The notes under the pieces: generated by a model
Told to the model about the DNA's origin: nothing
Databases searched by the model: none
Seen by the model: only the letters and a program-made list of their open reading frames with translations
Made by a program: the position numbers and the translations under genes
Shown here: positions 290 through 56,519 of the stretch, in pieces
Numbering within the stretch: the first letter of the stretch is position 1
How the letters are laid out: each line of letters starts with the position of its first letter
DNA from: a virus
IMG/VR virus record: IMGVR_UViG_3300031576_000035
Span: 1 to 64,000 of that record
DNA length: 64,000 nt
Direction: 5' to 3' (one strand)

Positions 290-1108
290 TCAGCTGTCAA
301 TACTGAACAAAGTAGTGTACTCTGAGTGGAGGTAGTTGTTCGGAGGACAGCCGGAGCCGTCCATCCCCTCGTGCCGGCCGGTGTCCTCGTAAGCCAGGAT
401 GCTGTTAGAGGTTCCGTCAACAACATTGACGATGGTGGTGCCTCCATAGAAGTTGTCGAATCGCAGTGCCTGGAGTTGCGCGGACGGCTTCAACTGGAAG
501 CGCTTGGTCGGCGCCACGTCCGGAGTCCCCGTGGGGTAGTTCTGGTAGTACACCAGGGGGTAGGGCGCCGATGAGATGGCCGCGTTGTAGCGACCTGGAG
601 GCAGCGCGAACTGGTTGCTGCTGATCTCCACGTACGGCAAGAAGGCAACGTCGGTACAGCCGTACCCCTGGCTGTCTCGCGGCACGGTGCGCACCGGGTT
701 GACGGGACAAATGTAGATCTTGGGGACGCTGCCGAACCCCTGTCCCTGGGAGGCCAGCAGCGCGTTGGTACCCTCGTTGTGGCGGAAGCGCAGATCCAGC
801 TGCTTGTAAACGTTGTCCTGCTCGACGAACGGCAGGATCAGTGTCAGCGGCGAATGCAGGCACTGGGTTTTGACGATCACGCCATTGAAGTTGACGAGGT
901 GCTCGCCGCTCCTCGGGAACTTGCCGTGCGCGTCGTGGAAGCCGTGCGTGGCCAGGCCAACCTGCTTGAAGTTGTTCATGCAATGCGTGCGTGCGGCAGC
1001 CTCGCGCACTTTCTGCACAGCCGGCAGGAGAAGGCCAAGCAGAACGGCAATGATGGCAATTACCACCAGCAACTCAATGAGGGTGAAGGCGTTACGGAGA
1101 ATCTTCAT
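290..1108 (-). CDS. DUF1559 prepilin-like protein, C-terminally short
   Basis: 272 aa. The N-terminus is a classic type IV prepilin/pseudopilin signal: a short basic leader, then [16 protein letters not shown], ending in the KVREAAART segment typical of planctomycete DUF1559 proteins. The central CMNNFKQ and VVDGTSNSI motifs also fit the family. Family members usually end with a His-rich FADGS box; here the protein stops about 30 residues after the DGTSN motif, so it is probably truncated or rearranged. GAGGATAACC precedes the ATG as ribosome site. These proteins are abundant in planctomycete chromosomes, so this gene may be host flank rather than phage, but it sits only 67 bp from the phage-like operon. 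The family assignment is secure; pilus or surface function is inferred. Confidence 0.85.
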
Positions 1109-8613: not shown

Positions 8614-8754
8614 TTATTCCAAACTCCAGCCGTTGGGCGTCGCCGCCAAGACGTCGCCGTTGCCGCAGTCATACAACGTCGGATCCGTGTAGTTTTCCCC
8701 GTGCGAACGCGCACGGTAGATGTCGAGCGTATCGTCCAGATTCCACCGTGTCAC
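8614..8754 (-). CDS. 46-aa hypothetical protein
   Basis: Starts with GTG at 8754 just after the 95-aa gene, with GGTGAT in its stop region as possible ribosome site. Soluble, acidic, beginning TRWNLDDTLDIYRARS and ending WSLE. The frame is open and terminates 11 bp before the next start, consistent with a coupled small gene. Moderate support only. Confidence 0.45.
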   Translation of the reverse strand: MTRWNLDDTLDIYRARSHGENYTDPTLYDCGNGDVLAATPNGWSLE

Positions 8755-9133
8755 TGTATCACCAGGGCTCGGTCTCCAGATCACCGGTAACCGCTACCAT
8801 GACATCGTGTGGTAGCTCGCGGCCGCATAGTACGTAGGGGGTGTCGCTCCCCTGCCGGCTGGCCTGGAGTAGATCGTAGTCTGCCTCCAACTGGACGCAC
8901 ACCTCCTGAAGCGCCTCCTCTCCCACCATGTCTCCAGCTGGCGTTCGCAGGACGGCACGGCCGCCGCCGTCCGGCGAGTGCCATACCATGACGTGGTACA
9001 GCTTCACCCGCCACGGATCGCGCGGGTTGATCTTGGCCGCTCTCATCGGCGATTCCTCCAATTCCAGAAGGCCATCGCGGTGCCGATGGCGGCACCAATG
9101 AAACTTGCCACGACAACGCTGATCAGTAGTTCC
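8744..9133. repeat. Copy 1 of a perfect 390-bp direct duplication
   Basis: Identical by eye to 10309-10698 (offset 1565). It carries the whole 95-aa gene and most of a 34-aa membrane-protein gene. The right end diverges within the first codons of the small membrane protein, so each copy has its own start. Confidence 0.95.
8759..9046 (-). CDS. 95-aa hypothetical protein, duplicated copy 1
   Basis: Starts at the ATG at 9046 with GGAGGAATC upstream. Begins MRAAKINPRDPWRVKLYHVM and has a soluble acidic middle (EEALQEVCVQLEADYDLL). Identical to the protein at 10324-10611. Overlaps the preceding 34-aa gene by 4 bp. Not recognised. Confidence 0.68.
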   Translation of the reverse strand: MRAAKINPRDPWRVKLYHVMVWHSPDGGGRAVLRTPAGDMVGEEALQEVCVQLEADYDLLQASRQGSDTPYVLCGRELPHDVMVAVTGDLETEPW

Positions 9134-10308: not shown

Positions 10309-10698
10309 CACCGTGTCACTGTATCACCAGGGCTCGGTCTCCAGATCACCGGTAACCGCTACCATGACATCGTGTGGTAGCTCGCGGCCGCATAGTACGT
10401 AGGGGGTGTCGCTCCCCTGCCGGCTGGCCTGGAGTAGATCGTAGTCTGCCTCCAACTGGACGCACACCTCCTGAAGCGCCTCCTCTCCCACCATGTCTCC
10501 AGCTGGCGTTCGCAGGACGGCACGGCCGCCGCCGTCCGGCGAGTGCCATACCATGACGTGGTACAGCTTCACCCGCCACGGATCGCGCGGGTTGATCTTG
10601 GCCGCTCTCATCGGCGATTCCTCCAATTCCAGAAGGCCATCGCGGTGCCGATGGCGGCACCAATGAAACTTGCCACGACAACGCTGATCAGTAGTTCC
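10309..10698. repeat. Copy 2 of the perfect 390-bp direct duplication
   Basis: Identical by eye to 8744-9133. Its left end touches the 5' end of the tRNA-like element and its right end lies within the first codons of the 32-aa gene, next to the stop of the Csx16-family gene. Perfect identity implies a very recent event, gene conversion, or an assembly artefact. Confidence 0.95.
10324..10611 (-). CDS. 95-aa hypothetical protein, duplicated copy 2
   Basis: Sequence-identical to the protein at 8759-9046, with the same GGAGGAATC ribosome site. It follows the 32-aa membrane protein and the Csx16-family gene in the leftward early transcript. Function unknown. Confidence 0.68.
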   Translation of the reverse strand: MRAAKINPRDPWRVKLYHVMVWHSPDGGGRAVLRTPAGDMVGEEALQEVCVQLEADYDLLQASRQGSDTPYVLCGRELPHDVMVAVTGDLETEPW

Positions 10699-10708: not shown

Positions 10709-11077
10709 TTACACCTCCTTAACCTCGTAGGTGCGCAGACGCGCACCGGCTTTGGCCATATCCGCCAGGGTGTACTCCTGCCCTCGCGGTGCCGCCCCTT
10801 CGAACTCGACGACAGTCACCCGATCCGCGATCGCGGCCAGGTGCAGCGGCAGGTTGCCGAAGACATGCTTGCCGCGCACGTCGTCTGGCGTCGCCTGCTC
10901 GATGATGGGGATCTCCTCGACGAGGTCGCCGGCCTGGCCGAACCAGTGGCCGACATCGGCCCGGACGAAGCCGGCAAGCTGGTTCCCCTGCCGCGTGTAC
11001 TCGATCCCCTCGGTACAGAGGGAGCCGGTGATGAACTCGATTGCGGCCGGATGACGACTGACGATGATCCTCTGCAT
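10709..11077 (-). CDS. csx16: Csx16 (VVA1548) family CRISPR-ancillary protein
   Basis: 122 aa. The N-terminus has the family's VSRHPAAIEFI motif. The second half has DDVRGKHVFGNLPLHLAA, then APRGQEYTLADM and GARLRTYEV, matching the order and spacing of Csx16 proteins. The family is otherwise found with type III CRISPR systems, and I recall recent work assigning Csx16 and relatives to ring nucleases that degrade cyclic oligoadenylate messengers. Here no cas genes are nearby: it is the first gene of a leftward transcript diverging from an XRE repressor, an early-gene position. CACAGGAGCATGTC precedes the ATG. A type III anti-CRISPR role is inferred. Confidence 0.78.
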   Translation of the reverse strand: MQRIIVSRHPAAIEFITGSLCTEGIEYTRQGNQLAGFVRADVGHWFGQAGDLVEEIPIIEQATPDDVRGKHVFGNLPLHLAAIADRVTVVEFEGAAPRGQEYTLADMAKAGARLRTYEVKEV

Positions 11078-11232
11078 GATGACATGCTCCTGTGTTATGT
11101 TGTCTCACTCCTACACTAGTAATACGCTCGCCGAGACCCGATATTTCAGCCGCGCACGCGAATTTCCAGAAATCTCTTGTCCCGAGTGCGACTAACGTCC
11201 TACTATGATATAGAGAGGAGAACACCCAACCC
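11078..11232. promoter_or_regulatory. Divergent control region between csx16 and the XRE repressor
   Basis: 155 bp without a gene. Plus strand: TATGAT at 11204-11209 could be the repressor's -10 box, but no good -35 lies at 16-18 bp. Short TACTA/ACTAGT elements resemble the arms of the 10.1-kb operator, suggesting autoregulation. The exact promoters are not resolved. Confidence 0.45.
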
Positions 11233-11583
11233 ATGACGGAAAAAATTGTCACTCCCCATCGCACGACGGGGGATCTGCTTAAGCGCTTGCGCCTGCACGC
11301 CGGCCTCAGCCAGCAGATGCTGGCCGAAAAAAGCGGCGTATCGCTGGCGACCATCCGCACCTGGGAGCAGGGACGAAGGACGCCCATCAACGCGGGTTTT
11401 TTCCGCGTCGCCACGACGCTCGGCGTGTCGATGGATGTGTTTGGTGGCCTGGAGGACGGAAAGAGAATCCCGGATAATGAACGTCGCGAATTGACATATT
11501 CCGAGGAATTGGGACGTATCTTGCGCTGTATTAGAAAGTTACAGCGCAAGATGGAAAACACTAATGGTACCGCGCCGGCTTAA
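11233..11583 (+). CDS. XRE-family (Cro/CI-like) transcriptional repressor
   Basis: 116 aa. A helix-turn-helix at about residues 12-66: LLKRLRLHAGLSQQMLAEKSGVSLATIRTWEQGRRTP, then the ATTLGVSMDVFGG helix. The C-terminal third is basic and helical, with no LexA-type peptidase, so it is unlikely to be SOS-cleaved. It is the only plus-strand gene in the early region. It probably binds the palindromic promoter at 10.1 kb and related sites at 6.8 and 11.1 kb. GAGGAG lies 12 bases before the ATG. Confidence 0.85.
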   Translation: MTEKIVTPHRTTGDLLKRLRLHAGLSQQMLAEKSGVSLATIRTWEQGRRTPINAGFFRVATTLGVSMDVFGGLEDGKRIPDNERRELTYSEELGRILRCIRKLQRKMENTNGTAPA

Positions 11584-12194: not shown

Positions 12195-12938
12195 TTACCT
12201 CTTCGCCAGATCGCCGACGATTAGTGCCTCGACGAGTACCTGAAACTCGTCATCCGGTAGCGTAACTCCTTTCGGCATCCTCTTTGTGCTGATCTCGCGC
12301 AACACGTCAAGCCTCTGCTGAGCGGTGAGAGCCACAACCACGTTGCTCTGGAGCAGTACCAGTCCCTTGCCCTTGGCCACCGCTACAGCCTGTTCGTGAC
12401 ACGAAGCACAGCGGTTCGACATCACCTGGTGGAAGCGCGCCAGGTTGCCGCCAGCTGGTTGTGGCTGAGGCTGTGCAGCCGCTGGAGCGGGTTGAGGGAT
12501 CGGAGCCATCGGTTGAGCAGCCGGAGGAACCGTCTGTTGCTGCTGCGCCCGAAGAAGGTATTGCTCGAGGTCGCCGATGCGCTTGAGCAGCGGCGCCAAC
12601 TCCGTCGCGCATGAGGACGGCTGTTGCGGCACCGTCTGTTGCTGCTGGCCATTGCCGTTGCCGGCGTGGTTGTTGGCACATGGCGAGGAGGACTGATAGC
12701 CCACCGCGTAGGCCGGCACCGCGACCGGCACATACTCGACGGCCCGGACAACCTTCTCGACGACCACCTGCTGCGGTGCGACGTAGTAGGTTGGAGCCAC
12801 GTACGCTGCCGCGTAGGAGTAGCGCACCGGCGCGTAGGAGTAGGACGAGACGTAGCTAAACGAGCGACAGCCGGAGGCATGCACCTCCGCCGCTCCAAAC
12901 ACCGTCGCCAGGCATACCGAAAGAACGATAACGCGCAT
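12195..12938 (-). CDS. Secreted mono-haem c-type cytochrome-like protein
   Basis: 247 aa from the ATG at 12938 (GAGG six bases upstream). A signal peptide is followed by a Tyr/Val-rich segment and Gln/Pro-rich linkers, then a C-terminal cytochrome c domain with the haem motif CASCH near residue 180 and a likely distal Met in KRMPKG. This composition and the C-terminal cytochrome are common in planctomycetes. It would act outside the inner membrane and need host cytochrome c maturation. It precedes the secreted repeat protein by 30 bp and follows another cytochrome. Confidence 0.78.
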   Translation of the reverse strand: MRVIVLSVCLATVFGAAEVHASGCRSFSYVSSYSYAPVRYSYAAAYVAPTYYVAPQQVVVEKVVRAVEYVPVAVPAYAVGYQSSSPCANNHAGNGNGQQQQTVPQQPSSCATELAPLLKRIGDLEQYLLRAQQQQTVPPAAQPMAPIPQPAPAAAQPQPQPAGGNLARFHQVMSNRCASCHEQAVAVAKGKGLVLLQSNVVVALTAQQRLDVLREISTKRMPKGVTLPDDEFQVLVEALIVGDLAKR

Positions 12939-12946
12939 CTCATACC

Positions 12947-14482
12947 TCACTTTTTCACAGGGAGAACCACGCCATCCAGAGCCGCATGGATCAAGTGTAT
13001 GGCCTCGTGGTAAGCCGTCACCGGGATTCCCTCGGGACGATCTGGCAGCCAGGCCGACACCACAGGATCGATCTGTCCCGGTGCCGTTCTCGTCTTAGCC
13101 TTCTCCAGATCGGCATAGTCTCTGAGCCGTTTCTGGAACGCCGCCGGTGTCATGCCGAAATCCCTGCTCGCTCGCTCCAATGTCACCGGCGCTTCAGCGT
13201 ACTGCTGCCAGATGCGTCCCAATCCCGATGCGAACTTCTGCGGCGTCAAGCCCGAGGCTTCATGCAGGGCGTTGGCATAACGGAGGCGATCCTCCGCCAG
13301 CTTCGGCTCCAGCTTCCGAGCATACGCCTGTCTGAGATCTCGAACGGTATCCTCGTCGCCGCCGAACAACAGGTTTGGCGGGAAGTTGATCGTTGACCGA
13401 ACCCACCCTTTGACATCCTGCAAGCCGCCCTCGGTGTGGCATCGGATACAACTCAGGTACATGTGGACTCTTCTATCATTGTAGGGAGCCGTCGAGTCGC
13501 TCGCAATAAAATCCGGAGCCGAGTCTACCCGGCCACCCACGTCCTTCTCGGCGTTGCCGTTGGCGTCCAGCGTTCCCTTGAAGAGGCCCATTGCCCACAT
13601 GCCGTTTGGCAGTGAGCCGTACTGCTCGCTGGCGTTGTACTGGAGTTGGTTATTTAGGATACGCAATGGGTTACTCTTGTCCTTAGGAGTTCTGACATCC
13701 AAAGTGTACCAGTATCTGCCACCTATCTTATCCAGGGCCGCGATGCCGCGTGGTTGTAGCGTTACCCCACTGGTCGCCACGCGCTCCCGGATCTCCTTGA
13801 GGAACGCCGGGTTGACACCCTTGACAACGAAGCCAATGAGACGCATGAACTCCTTTTCATCCTTGAATCCCAGGAAGTCGGCGTAACCAGCATTGCCGCG
13901 ATCGGCCTGGATGGCCGTCTGGCAGATGAACCACTCGGCCGTCACCAGCGGCACCTGACTCCCTGTCTTCGCGACGATGGCCTCCAGCATCTGCTTTTCG
14001 CGCGGATTCCGCGTCAGCCACGGGCCGAAGACGCTCTCCTTCTTCTTCTTCGGATACCTGAAGGCGCCTTTGGCGTACTCCTTACCGTTGGCCGGCCAGA
14101 CGCCGCCTTCCCAGAGTGTCTCTGTCTCCGTAATAGCTACCTGATGCCAGTACGGCTCGAATGCCTCCAGGTTCTCCCACGTCTTCGCGAACACCCCGTT
14201 GTAATCGCGGGTGTTGATCCGTACCAGCCAGCCGTTGACGAGCGTGTGCTCGATTATGTCCGGCGCCTGTGACAGCGAGTTCAGATGCGCCGACAGCACC
14301 TGAAACGTCTCACGCCGATCCTTTGGCGCAATGTTGTGCAATGACAGATAGCGATAGTGTTTTGATACCTCTTTCGGCAGTAGCAGTGCGTCCGTGGCGC
14401 AAACCTCGATTACCTGTGCTGGACTCATCAGATCCGGCACGGGAGGAGCCGGCGGAACCTGAGCCAGGACGGCGGAGACCAC
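12947..14482 (-). CDS. Secreted cytochrome c family protein
   Basis: 511 aa as called from the GTG at 14482. A single CIRCH haem motif lies near residue 350 (LSCIRCHTEGG). The rest is not recognised. Translation in frame further upstream gives a complete signal peptide, with a basic start and a WWLILLVVSAVLA core, but the only initiation codon there is ACG at 14515, which has GGAGG eight bases upstream. So either an ACG start is used or a short signal is made from 14482. The gene follows the metalloprotease gene directly and ends at the next cytochrome. Confidence 0.72.
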   Translation of the reverse strand: MVSAVLAQVPPAPPVPDLMSPAQVIEVCATDALLLPKEVSKHYRYLSLHNIAPKDRRETFQVLSAHLNSLSQAPDIIEHTLVNGWLVRINTRDYNGVFAKTWENLEAFEPYWHQVAITETETLWEGGVWPANGKEYAKGAFRYPKKKKESVFGPWLTRNPREKQMLEAIVAKTGSQVPLVTAEWFICQTAIQADRGNAGYADFLGFKDEKEFMRLIGFVVKGVNPAFLKEIRERVATSGVTLQPRGIAALDKIGGRYWYTLDVRTPKDKSNPLRILNNQLQYNASEQYGSLPNGMWAMGLFKGTLDANGNAEKDVGGRVDSAPDFIASDSTAPYNDRRVHMYLSCIRCHTEGGLQDVKGWVRSTINFPPNLLFGGDEDTVRDLRQAYARKLEPKLAEDRLRYANALHEASGLTPQKFASGLGRIWQQYAEAPVTLERASRDFGMTPAAFQKRLRDYADLEKAKTRTAPGQIDPVVSAWLPDRPEGIPVTAYHEAIHLIHAALDGVVLPVKK

Positions 14483-26102: not shown

Positions 26103-26415
26103 CCAACAGCCCCTGTTCTTTAAGCCAGTCGCTCATGGGCCCAAGTGAGAGCCAGGTGAATGGTGGCTCTCTGTCACTGCGCAGATATCCCTGACGCACT
26201 AGAGTCTTGATTCGCTCTGGATGATCAGAAACCTCAGTTAGCCGCAACCGCAGACGCAGATCCCCAGTTGCCAGCCGTGTCCCTGGCGGCACTGCCGCCA
26301 GGATTTTGAGCACAGCCAGTTGCAGTTTTGTGGGGACACGGCGCCCATCTATCACTTTTCGCGGGATCGCCTTGACGGCGGAAACCAGATAATCGGTACT
26401 GCAACTCAGCATCAT
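26095..26415 (-). CDS. Winged-helix-like small DNA-binding protein
   Basis: 106 aa from the ATG at 26415 (alternative 26412). The segment TKLQLAVLKILAAVPPGTRL...VSDHPERIKTLVRQGYLRSDRE reads as a winged helix (helix, helix, recognition helix, wing). Sits just downstream of the DHH phosphoesterase. Could regulate late genes; not recognised by name. Confidence 0.52.
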   Translation of the reverse strand: MMLSCSTDYLVSAVKAIPRKVIDGRRVPTKLQLAVLKILAAVPPGTRLATGDLRLRLRLTEVSDHPERIKTLVRQGYLRSDREPPFTWLSLGPMSDWLKEQGLLDE

Positions 26416-27263
26416 CGCTCCGTAAATCCTGCCGCATGTGGATGGCCACCGCCGCCCTTCAGTTCCTTGGCCAGTTGCGCCACGTTCACCCCAGTAGCCT
26501 CCGAACGCAGCGACCATACCCTGGCTCCATCGGCGCGAATGAAAAAGGTGGCGCCGAACGGCCGTCCTTCAGCCAGCTTGCCGGCGATTTCCGAGATCAT
26601 CACTGTGGCATTCGTGGCCAGCACTTTGTAACCGCACACTACGTGCTCGCCCGCCCTGGCAACGGCCTCATCGACCAGTTGCTGCTGGGAGCGGAGAATA
26701 GCGCCGCCCTCCGCAATAGCAAATCGCACCTGTTCGCGGAAGATGCGAGTGTCGATTTCTCCCCACTGCGCCCATGCGTCCCAGCGAGCGAAATCAAACG
26801 GCCACGATCGGATGAATGCGCTGATTTCGCGCGAGCGCGGCAACCGCCAGCGCCAGAGATCTCGGTCTTCAGTGTAGTCTACCAGCCAAGGAGATTTTAC
26901 ACCGGGAAAGAAGAATTCCCACGCCAGGCGGGCACCGCTCTTGGAGGTATCAAAGCCGATATAGATGCGACCCGAACCGTCCCACCAGTCCGCTGCAGAG
27001 CAACTCGGAAAAGACAAATCAGGTATCGCCGATTCGTGGTGATCAAGGACGCAGACGCTGTGCGCCAGTCCGATCACCTGCTGCATCTGCTCGCGTTTTA
27101 AACTAAAATCGAGCAAGTACACCGTGCGCCCCGCAACATCCGGCGTGGCATCACCATGCTGGACCGGCACGCATTCGGCATCCGGGAAACGCCGCCTGGC
27201 AACCCAGGCTGCACAGAATCCGTCAGAACATGCCGCGTGATATAGCACAAGAGGAGGACTCAT
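26412..27263 (-). CDS. DHH-family phosphoesterase
   Basis: 283 aa. The N-terminal metal-site motif is HAACSDGFCAAW, followed by VYLLDF, VCVLDHH (DHH) and a C-terminal DHHA1 signature GGGGHPHAAGF. Such enzymes degrade nano-RNA, cyclic dinucleotides or short DNA ends. In a phage that also encodes a Csx16-family protein, a role against cyclic-nucleotide signals is conceivable but not shown. Overlaps the next gene by 4 bp. Confidence 0.82.
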   Translation of the reverse strand: MSPPLVLYHAACSDGFCAAWVARRRFPDAECVPVQHGDATPDVAGRTVYLLDFSLKREQMQQVIGLAHSVCVLDHHESAIPDLSFPSCSAADWWDGSGRIYIGFDTSKSGARLAWEFFFPGVKSPWLVDYTEDRDLWRWRLPRSREISAFIRSWPFDFARWDAWAQWGEIDTRIFREQVRFAIAEGGAILRSQQQLVDEAVARAGEHVVCGYKVLATNATVMISEIAGKLAEGRPFGATFFIRADGARVWSLRSEATGVNVAQLAKELKGGGGHPHAAGFTER

Positions 27264-48552: not shown

Positions 48553-49484
48553 CAAAATTCCCCATCAAAGAGATACGCTGTCGCGCCAACAGCATCCAGG
48601 TGGCGCTTGCCGCCGCCTCCGGGCGGCTTCGGCGGCTTGACTACCTTGGGCGAAACCAGGCGCAACACTCTGACTGGCAACTGCGTAATCCGCGTGGCCG
48701 CGTCGCTCGGATCAACCAGCGTACGCACCGGCAACTGCGTAATCCGCGTGGCCGCGTCGCTCGGATCAACCAGCGTGCGCACCGGCAACTGCGTAATCCG
48801 CGTGGCAATCGGCGGGGTCAGGCTGACGCGCCGGCGTGTCGTTGAGATCACCGGAGCATGTGCCGAGGCCGTGGGTGCGTTGATTAGCGTGAGATTGCGA
48901 CCGCCCTTGAGGTCGATTTCCGGGCTGAAGGTACCCCTGACGGGCCAGTAACCCGTCAGGGAAGCAGGCCGGATCACCAAGGGTATAACACCCTTTCCCA
49001 AGGCAGCAATTTCCGCAGCATCGAGAGCCACGTTCCAGGTCGCCATCTCGGCAATATCACCATTAACGTAATCTGAATATCCTTTTCCTATATTAAGAGT
49101 GCCGCCAACGTCAAAGGTATTTCCTGAAGCAACCGTGCCCGCCTCGACGCCATCCTTGTAGACGTAGATAGTGCCGCCCGAATGCCTCCAGGCGATATGC
49201 ACCCAAGCATCATTGGTGTAGGTAAAACCTACCTGATCCACCGTGAGATCGTAATTGAAAGCCCAGATCTTGTCACCGGCCGACGCCGGATTGCCGCGAT
49301 ATAAACCCAGATAGCCACCCGAGTCGGCCATGATCCCAGGCAGATCATAAACCAGGAGATCCGTACCAGCCGTACCGGTGGGCTTGTGCCAGCAGCAGAA
49401 AGTGGCTGCGGAGTTAGTCAAGAAGGTACTGACAGCCACTCCGGAAGACAGATACTGATTAGTACCATTAAAGAGTCTGGCCAT
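48552..49484 (-). CDS. LamG-like (concanavalin-fold) adhesin with C-terminal repeats
   Basis: 310 aa with AAGGAGACTTGATCG upstream. Residues 1-165 form a LamG/pentraxin-type sandwich: FNGTNQYLSSG, then FTYTNDAWVHIAWRHSGGTIYVYKDG and GDIAEMATWNVALDAAEI. Residues 225-285 hold three 18-residue repeats (ATRITQLPVRTLVDPSDA). A Pro/Gly-rich C-terminus follows. Likely binds surface glycans of the host. Confidence 0.78.
   Translation of the reverse strand: MARLFNGTNQYLSSGVAVSTFLTNSAATFCCWHKPTGTAGTDLLVYDLPGIMADSGGYLGLYRGNPASAGDKIWAFNYDLTVDQVGFTYTNDAWVHIAWRHSGGTIYVYKDGVEAGTVASGNTFDVGGTLNIGKGYSDYVNGDIAEMATWNVALDAAEIAALGKGVIPLVIRPASLTGYWPVRGTFSPEIDLKGGRNLTLINAPTASAHAPVISTTRRRVSLTPPIATRITQLPVRTLVDPSDAATRITQLPVRTLVDPSDAATRITQLPVRVLRLVSPKVVKPPKPPGGGGKRHLDAVGATAYLFDGEF
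48676..48805. repeat. 54-bp tandem repeats in the adhesin gene
   Basis: Three copies starting at 48676, 48730 and 48784, the first two differing at one site and the last truncated. They encode the 18-residue repeats of the adhesin and are likely prone to slippage, changing the stalk length. Confidence 0.85.

Positions 49485-55856: not shown

Positions 55857-56519
<663 letters not shown>

Follow-up and report, generated by a model that had tools for sequence, protein, structure and literature searches.

A phage-borne Csx16-family protein as a candidate type III anti-CRISPR

Why would a phage carry a csx16-like gene away from cas genes, and could its product act against type III CRISPR systems? 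The gene lies in a window of 64,000 nucleotides (64 kb), the whole stretch of DNA analysed here, which is part of a 67,503-base (67.5 kb) IMG/VR phage contig encoding portal, terminase, minor head, tape measure and capsid proteins, a primase and RecT. A sequence-only reading had placed the gene at 10709 to 11077 and quoted the landmarks VSRHP, GNLPLHLAA, PRG...DM and GARL...Y; the location and every landmark proved correct. The open reading frame has a ribosome-binding site and a strong third-codon GC of 0.84. The features discussed below are:

10709 to 11077, minus strand: csx16-like gene, 122 aa (PF09652, PADLOC Csx16, full-length profile match, structure model)
11051 to 11059, minus strand: S7-R8-H9 motif, following strand 1, with R8 and H9 near-invariant in the family
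10919 to 11017, minus strand: insert of about 30 residues (about 21-53) between helix 1 and strand 2 (alignments and model secondary structure)
10895 to 10897, minus strand: Gln61, at the position of a histidine invariant in chromosomal Csx16 (alignments)
10847 to 10858, minus strand: G74-N-L-P77 motif, after strand 3; G74 and P77 each 71/71 in the mobile-element clade and 13/13 in chromosomal Csx16
10775 to 10786, minus strand: R98-G99-x-E101 motif, after strand 4 (residue conservation)
11078 to 11232: divergent intergenic region, 155 bp, presumed promoter site (from position only)
11233 to 11583, plus strand: divergent XRE-type helix-turn-helix gene facing csx16 (PF01381, 44.3 bits; PF13560, 47.2 bits)

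We uphold the assignment to the Csx16 family. The protein matched PF09652 (Csx16 / Cas_VVA1548) with 40.4 bits (E=3.5e-10; gathering cutoff 25) and the PADLOC Csx16 models (E=1.8e-9 and 3.9e-8), but reached 16.3 bits against a curated cutoff of 46.35 for TIGR02620, the NCBI CRISPR-associated Csx16 equivalog. The expected profile match was thus obtained from Pfam and PADLOC and missed for TIGR02620, and the protein is therefore a PF09652 homologue outside the NCBI equivalog. Single-sequence HMM matches covered residues 65-122 only, because the insert splits the N-terminal half; in profile-profile comparison, the mobile-element Csx16 set and CRISPR-locus Csx16 aligned over their full length (99.5%, E=4.6e-23), and the SRH, GxLP and RGxE motifs were found across the full domain. 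A Pfam scan up to E=1 gave no match to DUF1874, the AcrIII-1 family. By sequence, the protein belongs, as a diverged member, to a large Csx16 clade of mobile elements.

Residue conservation is high in the three motifs. Within the mobile-element clade R8 is found in 70/71 members, H9 in 71/71, R98 in 68/71 and G99 in 70/71, with E or D at position 101 in 70/71, and R8, H9, R98 and G99 are each present in 13/13 chromosomal Csx16 proteins. The window protein keeps most conserved family residues, namely R8, H9, G74, P77, R98, G99, E101 and Y117. Its structure model (pLDDT 88.6, pTM 0.82) contained the expected strands and helices and a hairpin from the insert, and in it strands 1, 3 and 4 are each followed immediately by a conserved motif (SRH, GNLP and RGxE, respectively); if the sheet is Rossmann-like, these loops would be expected to meet at one of its edges, where a ligand would bind. 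Foldseek searches of the PDB and of viral models gave no significant match, and so we do not take the fold as proof: the best PDB match, to the CARF protein Cad1 as a CARF-like fold comparison, was non-significant (E=0.22), as was a weak similarity to AcrIII-1 (2j6b; E=0.38 and 0.88). A sequence search of the PDB turned up no Csx16 structure, giving DARPin matches to the LPLHLAA stretch only.

The gene is virus-encoded and, as had been claimed, stands apart from cas genes and CRISPR arrays. Cas10 had no match in the whole 67.5 kb record, which therefore does not offer the type III CRISPR locus setting of TIGR02620; no cas family besides Csx16 was among the PADLOC matches listed (25 of 31 families; 85 predicted genes), and repeat scans revealed no CRISPR-like array. 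A type III locus just outside the window was also looked for, and no cas genes were seen in the last 3.5 kb of the record. The gene had further been described as the lead gene of a leftward transcript facing an XRE repressor, an early-gene position. The divergent XRE gene and the gap between them were confirmed, and this arrangement is consistent with early expression, but nearly all genes of the record point leftward, so that first place in a leftward transcript is weak evidence taken alone, and no sigma-70-like promoter, inverted repeat or operator was found in the 155-bp gap.

The phage probably infects planctomycete bacteria, as suggested by a DUF1559 protein that has a methylation motif at its N-terminus (window 290-1108, minus strand), which we take to mark such a host; literature on type III CRISPR in planctomycetes yielded nothing decisive. 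Several other features of the record are worth recording. An exact 390-bp direct repeat (window 8744-9133 and 10309-10698), each copy of which encodes an identical 95-aa protein of no recognised family, has its second copy stopping 11 bp short of the csx16 stop codon; it reflects either duplication in the recent past or an artefact of assembly. Two proteins encoded immediately upstream of the XRE gene (12195-14482, minus strand) have CxxCH motifs that resemble haem-binding sites (CASCHEQ and CIRCHTEG); one of them also begins like a signal peptide and gives a weak, sub-cutoff cytochrome match. They would be host-type cargo, unusual for a phage. Near-perfect tandem repeats at 48676-48806, 55883-55967 and 56125-56329 lie within open reading frames and have periods (54, 42 and 63) that are each divisible by three, and an IS110-like transposase ORF (L007 4130-5347) is found at the end of the viral record, beyond the window. 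DHH/DHHA1-type phosphoesterases can break down short oligonucleotides, and the phage encodes one (26412-27263, minus strand; DHH family also among the PHROGs matches); that it may handle ring-nuclease products is speculation.

We suggest that the gene probably encodes a phage-borne Csx16-type cA4 ring nuclease whose role is that of a type III anti-CRISPR, the candidacy first raised by the sequence-only reading and still the best explanation of the locus. A host type III Cas10 would make cyclic tetra-adenylate (cA4) on sensing phage RNA; the phage protein, expressed early and presumably as a dimer, would bind cA4 through the loops that follow strands 1, 3 and 4, with R8/H9, G74-P77 and R98-G99-E101 as putative contacts, and cut it to linear pieces, and with cA4 removed the cA4-activated effectors would remain off. 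The ring-nuclease activity ascribed to the family is real, as Hoikkala et al. found that Csx16 fully degrades cA4 in vitro, and not cA3 or cA6 (PMC12409355); we infer cleavage by this copy from that published family activity. AcrIII-1 and AcrIII-2 are viral precedents (PMC12751052), and the literature searched contained no in vivo test of a phage Csx16. Direct support, at the level of sequence, is provided by the full-length homology, the phage context, the absence of cas genes, the large mobile-element clade and the retention of most site residues. We also count in favour a natural CARF-HEPN-Csx16 fusion, described below, and a similar PADLOC fusion model, and count against it the TIGR02620 miss, the change of His61 to Gln and the lack of a significant structural match.

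The change at position 61 raises the foremost alternative, that the protein is a sponge which binds the messenger uncut and blocks the alarm by sequestration. Histidine is found at this position in 13/13 chromosomal proteins and 58/71 mobile-element members; missing from the other 13/71, it is not a family-wide feature, and the window protein's subclade has Asn, Gln or Ser instead. If the lost histidine is catalytic, a protein with Gln61 may bind without cutting; viral cyclic-nucleotide sponges are known, and such a role has been considered for Csx15 (PMC12409355). We nevertheless consider sequestration unlikely, as R8, H9, R98 and E101 are retained. The other peculiarity of the subclade, the insert, is predicted from the model to form a beta hairpin; it is common in part to one other phage only (L002), and relatives lacking it have the standard compact Csx16 form.

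Relatives of the gene are widespread in environmental viruses, with about 70 IMG/VR contigs carrying them. When viral contigs were scanned with three alignments made from these relatives, 13, 66 and 4 loci were retrieved, with some overlap; a scan with CRISPR-locus Csx16 retrieved 5. The count may be too low for mobile-clade copies in chromosomes or prophages, since viral sequences supplied the patterns for both the viral and the genome scans and window-type patterns alone were run on the genome collection. A tree of 90 sequences placed 68 viral and two plasmid sequences in one clade (99/95), along with a phage contig that was assigned to a Patescibacteria genome and carries a terminase; a separate group (99/95) joined 12 of the 13 chromosomal or CRISPR-locus sequences to one viral row. 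The window protein falls with L002 in an eight-row viral subclade, five rows of which are near-copies, and the inner branching is rough because the tree was built from a small number of columns and the bootstrap had not converged. Among the fetched phage loci, csx16 was the only window gene with relatives in other phages, which fits a mobile counter-defence gene.

Both plasmid rows were typed as MPF_T by conjugation genes, and no cas genes were near csx16 among the genes listed in the incomplete plasmid tables; one copy is near single-stranded-DNA-binding genes and the other adjoins a conjugative transfer gene. Plasmid pMESIL02 of Allomeiothermus silvanus has two separate Csx16 genes (L037 7998-10013 and L127 4992-5777), one encoding a 671-aa protein with, by eye, a second Csx16-like stretch and the other adjoining a conjugative DNA transfer gene. 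Two viral proteins on a very long branch (L118 4013-4648 and L119 5001-5273), with an SRH start and a DDIKGKHVVGTLPPHL stretch and no RGxE, are a more distant relative whose function may differ.

The distance of the mobile-element clade from the CRISPR-locus clade could be read as a change of target, the protein acting in anti-defence on another nucleotide signal, such as a CBASS messenger or a different cyclic oligoadenylate, and not on cA4 from type III systems; phage nucleases with broad targets are known elsewhere (Crn4, PMC12830947). This is an improbable reading, as the Csx16 tested was specific for cA4 (PMC12409355) and most site residues are common to both sets.

Improbable to a still greater degree is a cellular-type role, in which the protein would be an off-switch (a Crn role) for a type III system of the phage or its host, or a passenger without anti-defence function. 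An off-switch within a type III locus is indeed what most characterised Csx16 proteins are (PMC12409355). Cellular genomes supply a contrast that favours the anti-CRISPR reading of the viral copies: a PF09652 search of 398 Pseudomonadota and 287 Patescibacteria genomes returned only CRISPR-type copies and one phage contig, and strong Cas10 matches (>80 bits) accompanied above-cutoff csx16 in 9 of 12 Pseudomonadota genomes, in 6 of those 9 no more than about 11 kb away on one contig. Only strong matches were counted because the Cas10 model weakly matches other palm domains, as seen in an E. coli control. Against this role, Cas10 is absent from the window record, and its palm was found in 0/50 related csx16-bearing viral records, of which 25 had a terminase by the single family phrog_2; a passenger would moreover not be expected to persist over long times as a clade spread across unrelated phages, with its site residues conserved.

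One of the six contigs with both csx16 and Cas10 carries the fusion mentioned above, in Jhaorihella thermophila (L026 8492-10294), where a C-terminal Csx16 domain is joined to a likely CARF-HEPN effector, so read from sequence and the PADLOC fusion model, 6.6 kb from Cas10. By analogy with Csx1-Crn2, it is a candidate self-limiting effector.

Finally, chance resemblance to an ankyrin-type PLHLAA stretch, suggested by weak Ank matches (E=0.15-0.23) and many DARPin matches to residues 55-92 in the PDB sequence scan, can be dismissed, as no Ank match passed its cutoff, the full-length profile alignment with CRISPR-locus Csx16 takes in the N-terminal SRH and C-terminal RG.E motifs as well, and the predicted fold is an alpha/beta sheet and not a helical repeat.

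Phage-borne Csx16 as such is already known, from 2 of 28,114 phage genomes (PMC12409355). New here are the extent of the viral clade and its separateness from Csx16 of CRISPR loci, together with two traits of the subclade, the insert and the missing histidine; for none of these did we find an earlier report in the literature searched, which excluded most subscription journals. We give roughly even weight to the broader proposition that the Csx16 branch of phages and conjugative plasmids joins AcrIII-1 and AcrIII-2 as the third family of viral ring-nuclease anti-CRISPRs, far commoner in environmental phages than surveys of reference phages suggest, and that the subclade may have shifted to sequestering or to another signal. 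Few viral proteins that dismantle type III CRISPR signalling are known, the literature naming AcrIII-1, AcrIII-2 and, tentatively, Crn4; with about 70 environmental viral contigs against two surveyed phage genomes, the Csx16 clade would, if this is true, be a major counter-defence family. It supplies ready test proteins, including natural variants at the possible active-site histidine, and suggests that planctomycete phages face cyclic-oligoadenylate immunity.

The closest known system is CRISPR-locus Csx16 (PF09652/TIGR02620), a cA4 ring nuclease (PMC12409355) with the same domain and the same SRH, GxLP and RGxE motifs, in contrast to which the window protein is phage-borne, away from cas genes, in a separate clade, below the TIGR02620 cutoff, and distinguished by Gln in place of His61 and the extra insert of about 30 residues. 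The Csx16 of Methanobacterium virus Drs3, annotated Cas_VVA1548, is likewise a virus-borne PF09652 protein outside a cas locus, but belongs to an archaeal virus and sits on a very long branch outside the window protein's clade. Reference phage records had no match to the window protein, and a relative used as query matched Drs3 only; because Drs3 has two records, it is probably the phage case counted in the survey (PMC12409355). AcrIII-1 (viral Crn2, DUF1874), a small viral cA4 ring nuclease and anti-CRISPR, would be similar in action if our explanation is right, but is of a different family. AcrIII-2, a viral SAVED ring nuclease (PMC12751052), is a cellular cyclic-oligoadenylate-processing domain acquired by viruses and turned against cA4, as we propose here, and differs in its larger SAVED domain and in being biochemically proven. 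Crn4b (PMC12830947), a ring nuclease of CRISPR loci as well as phages and plasmids, has also been proposed as an anti-CRISPR, and differs in its unrelated fold and broad cyclic-oligoadenylate specificity.
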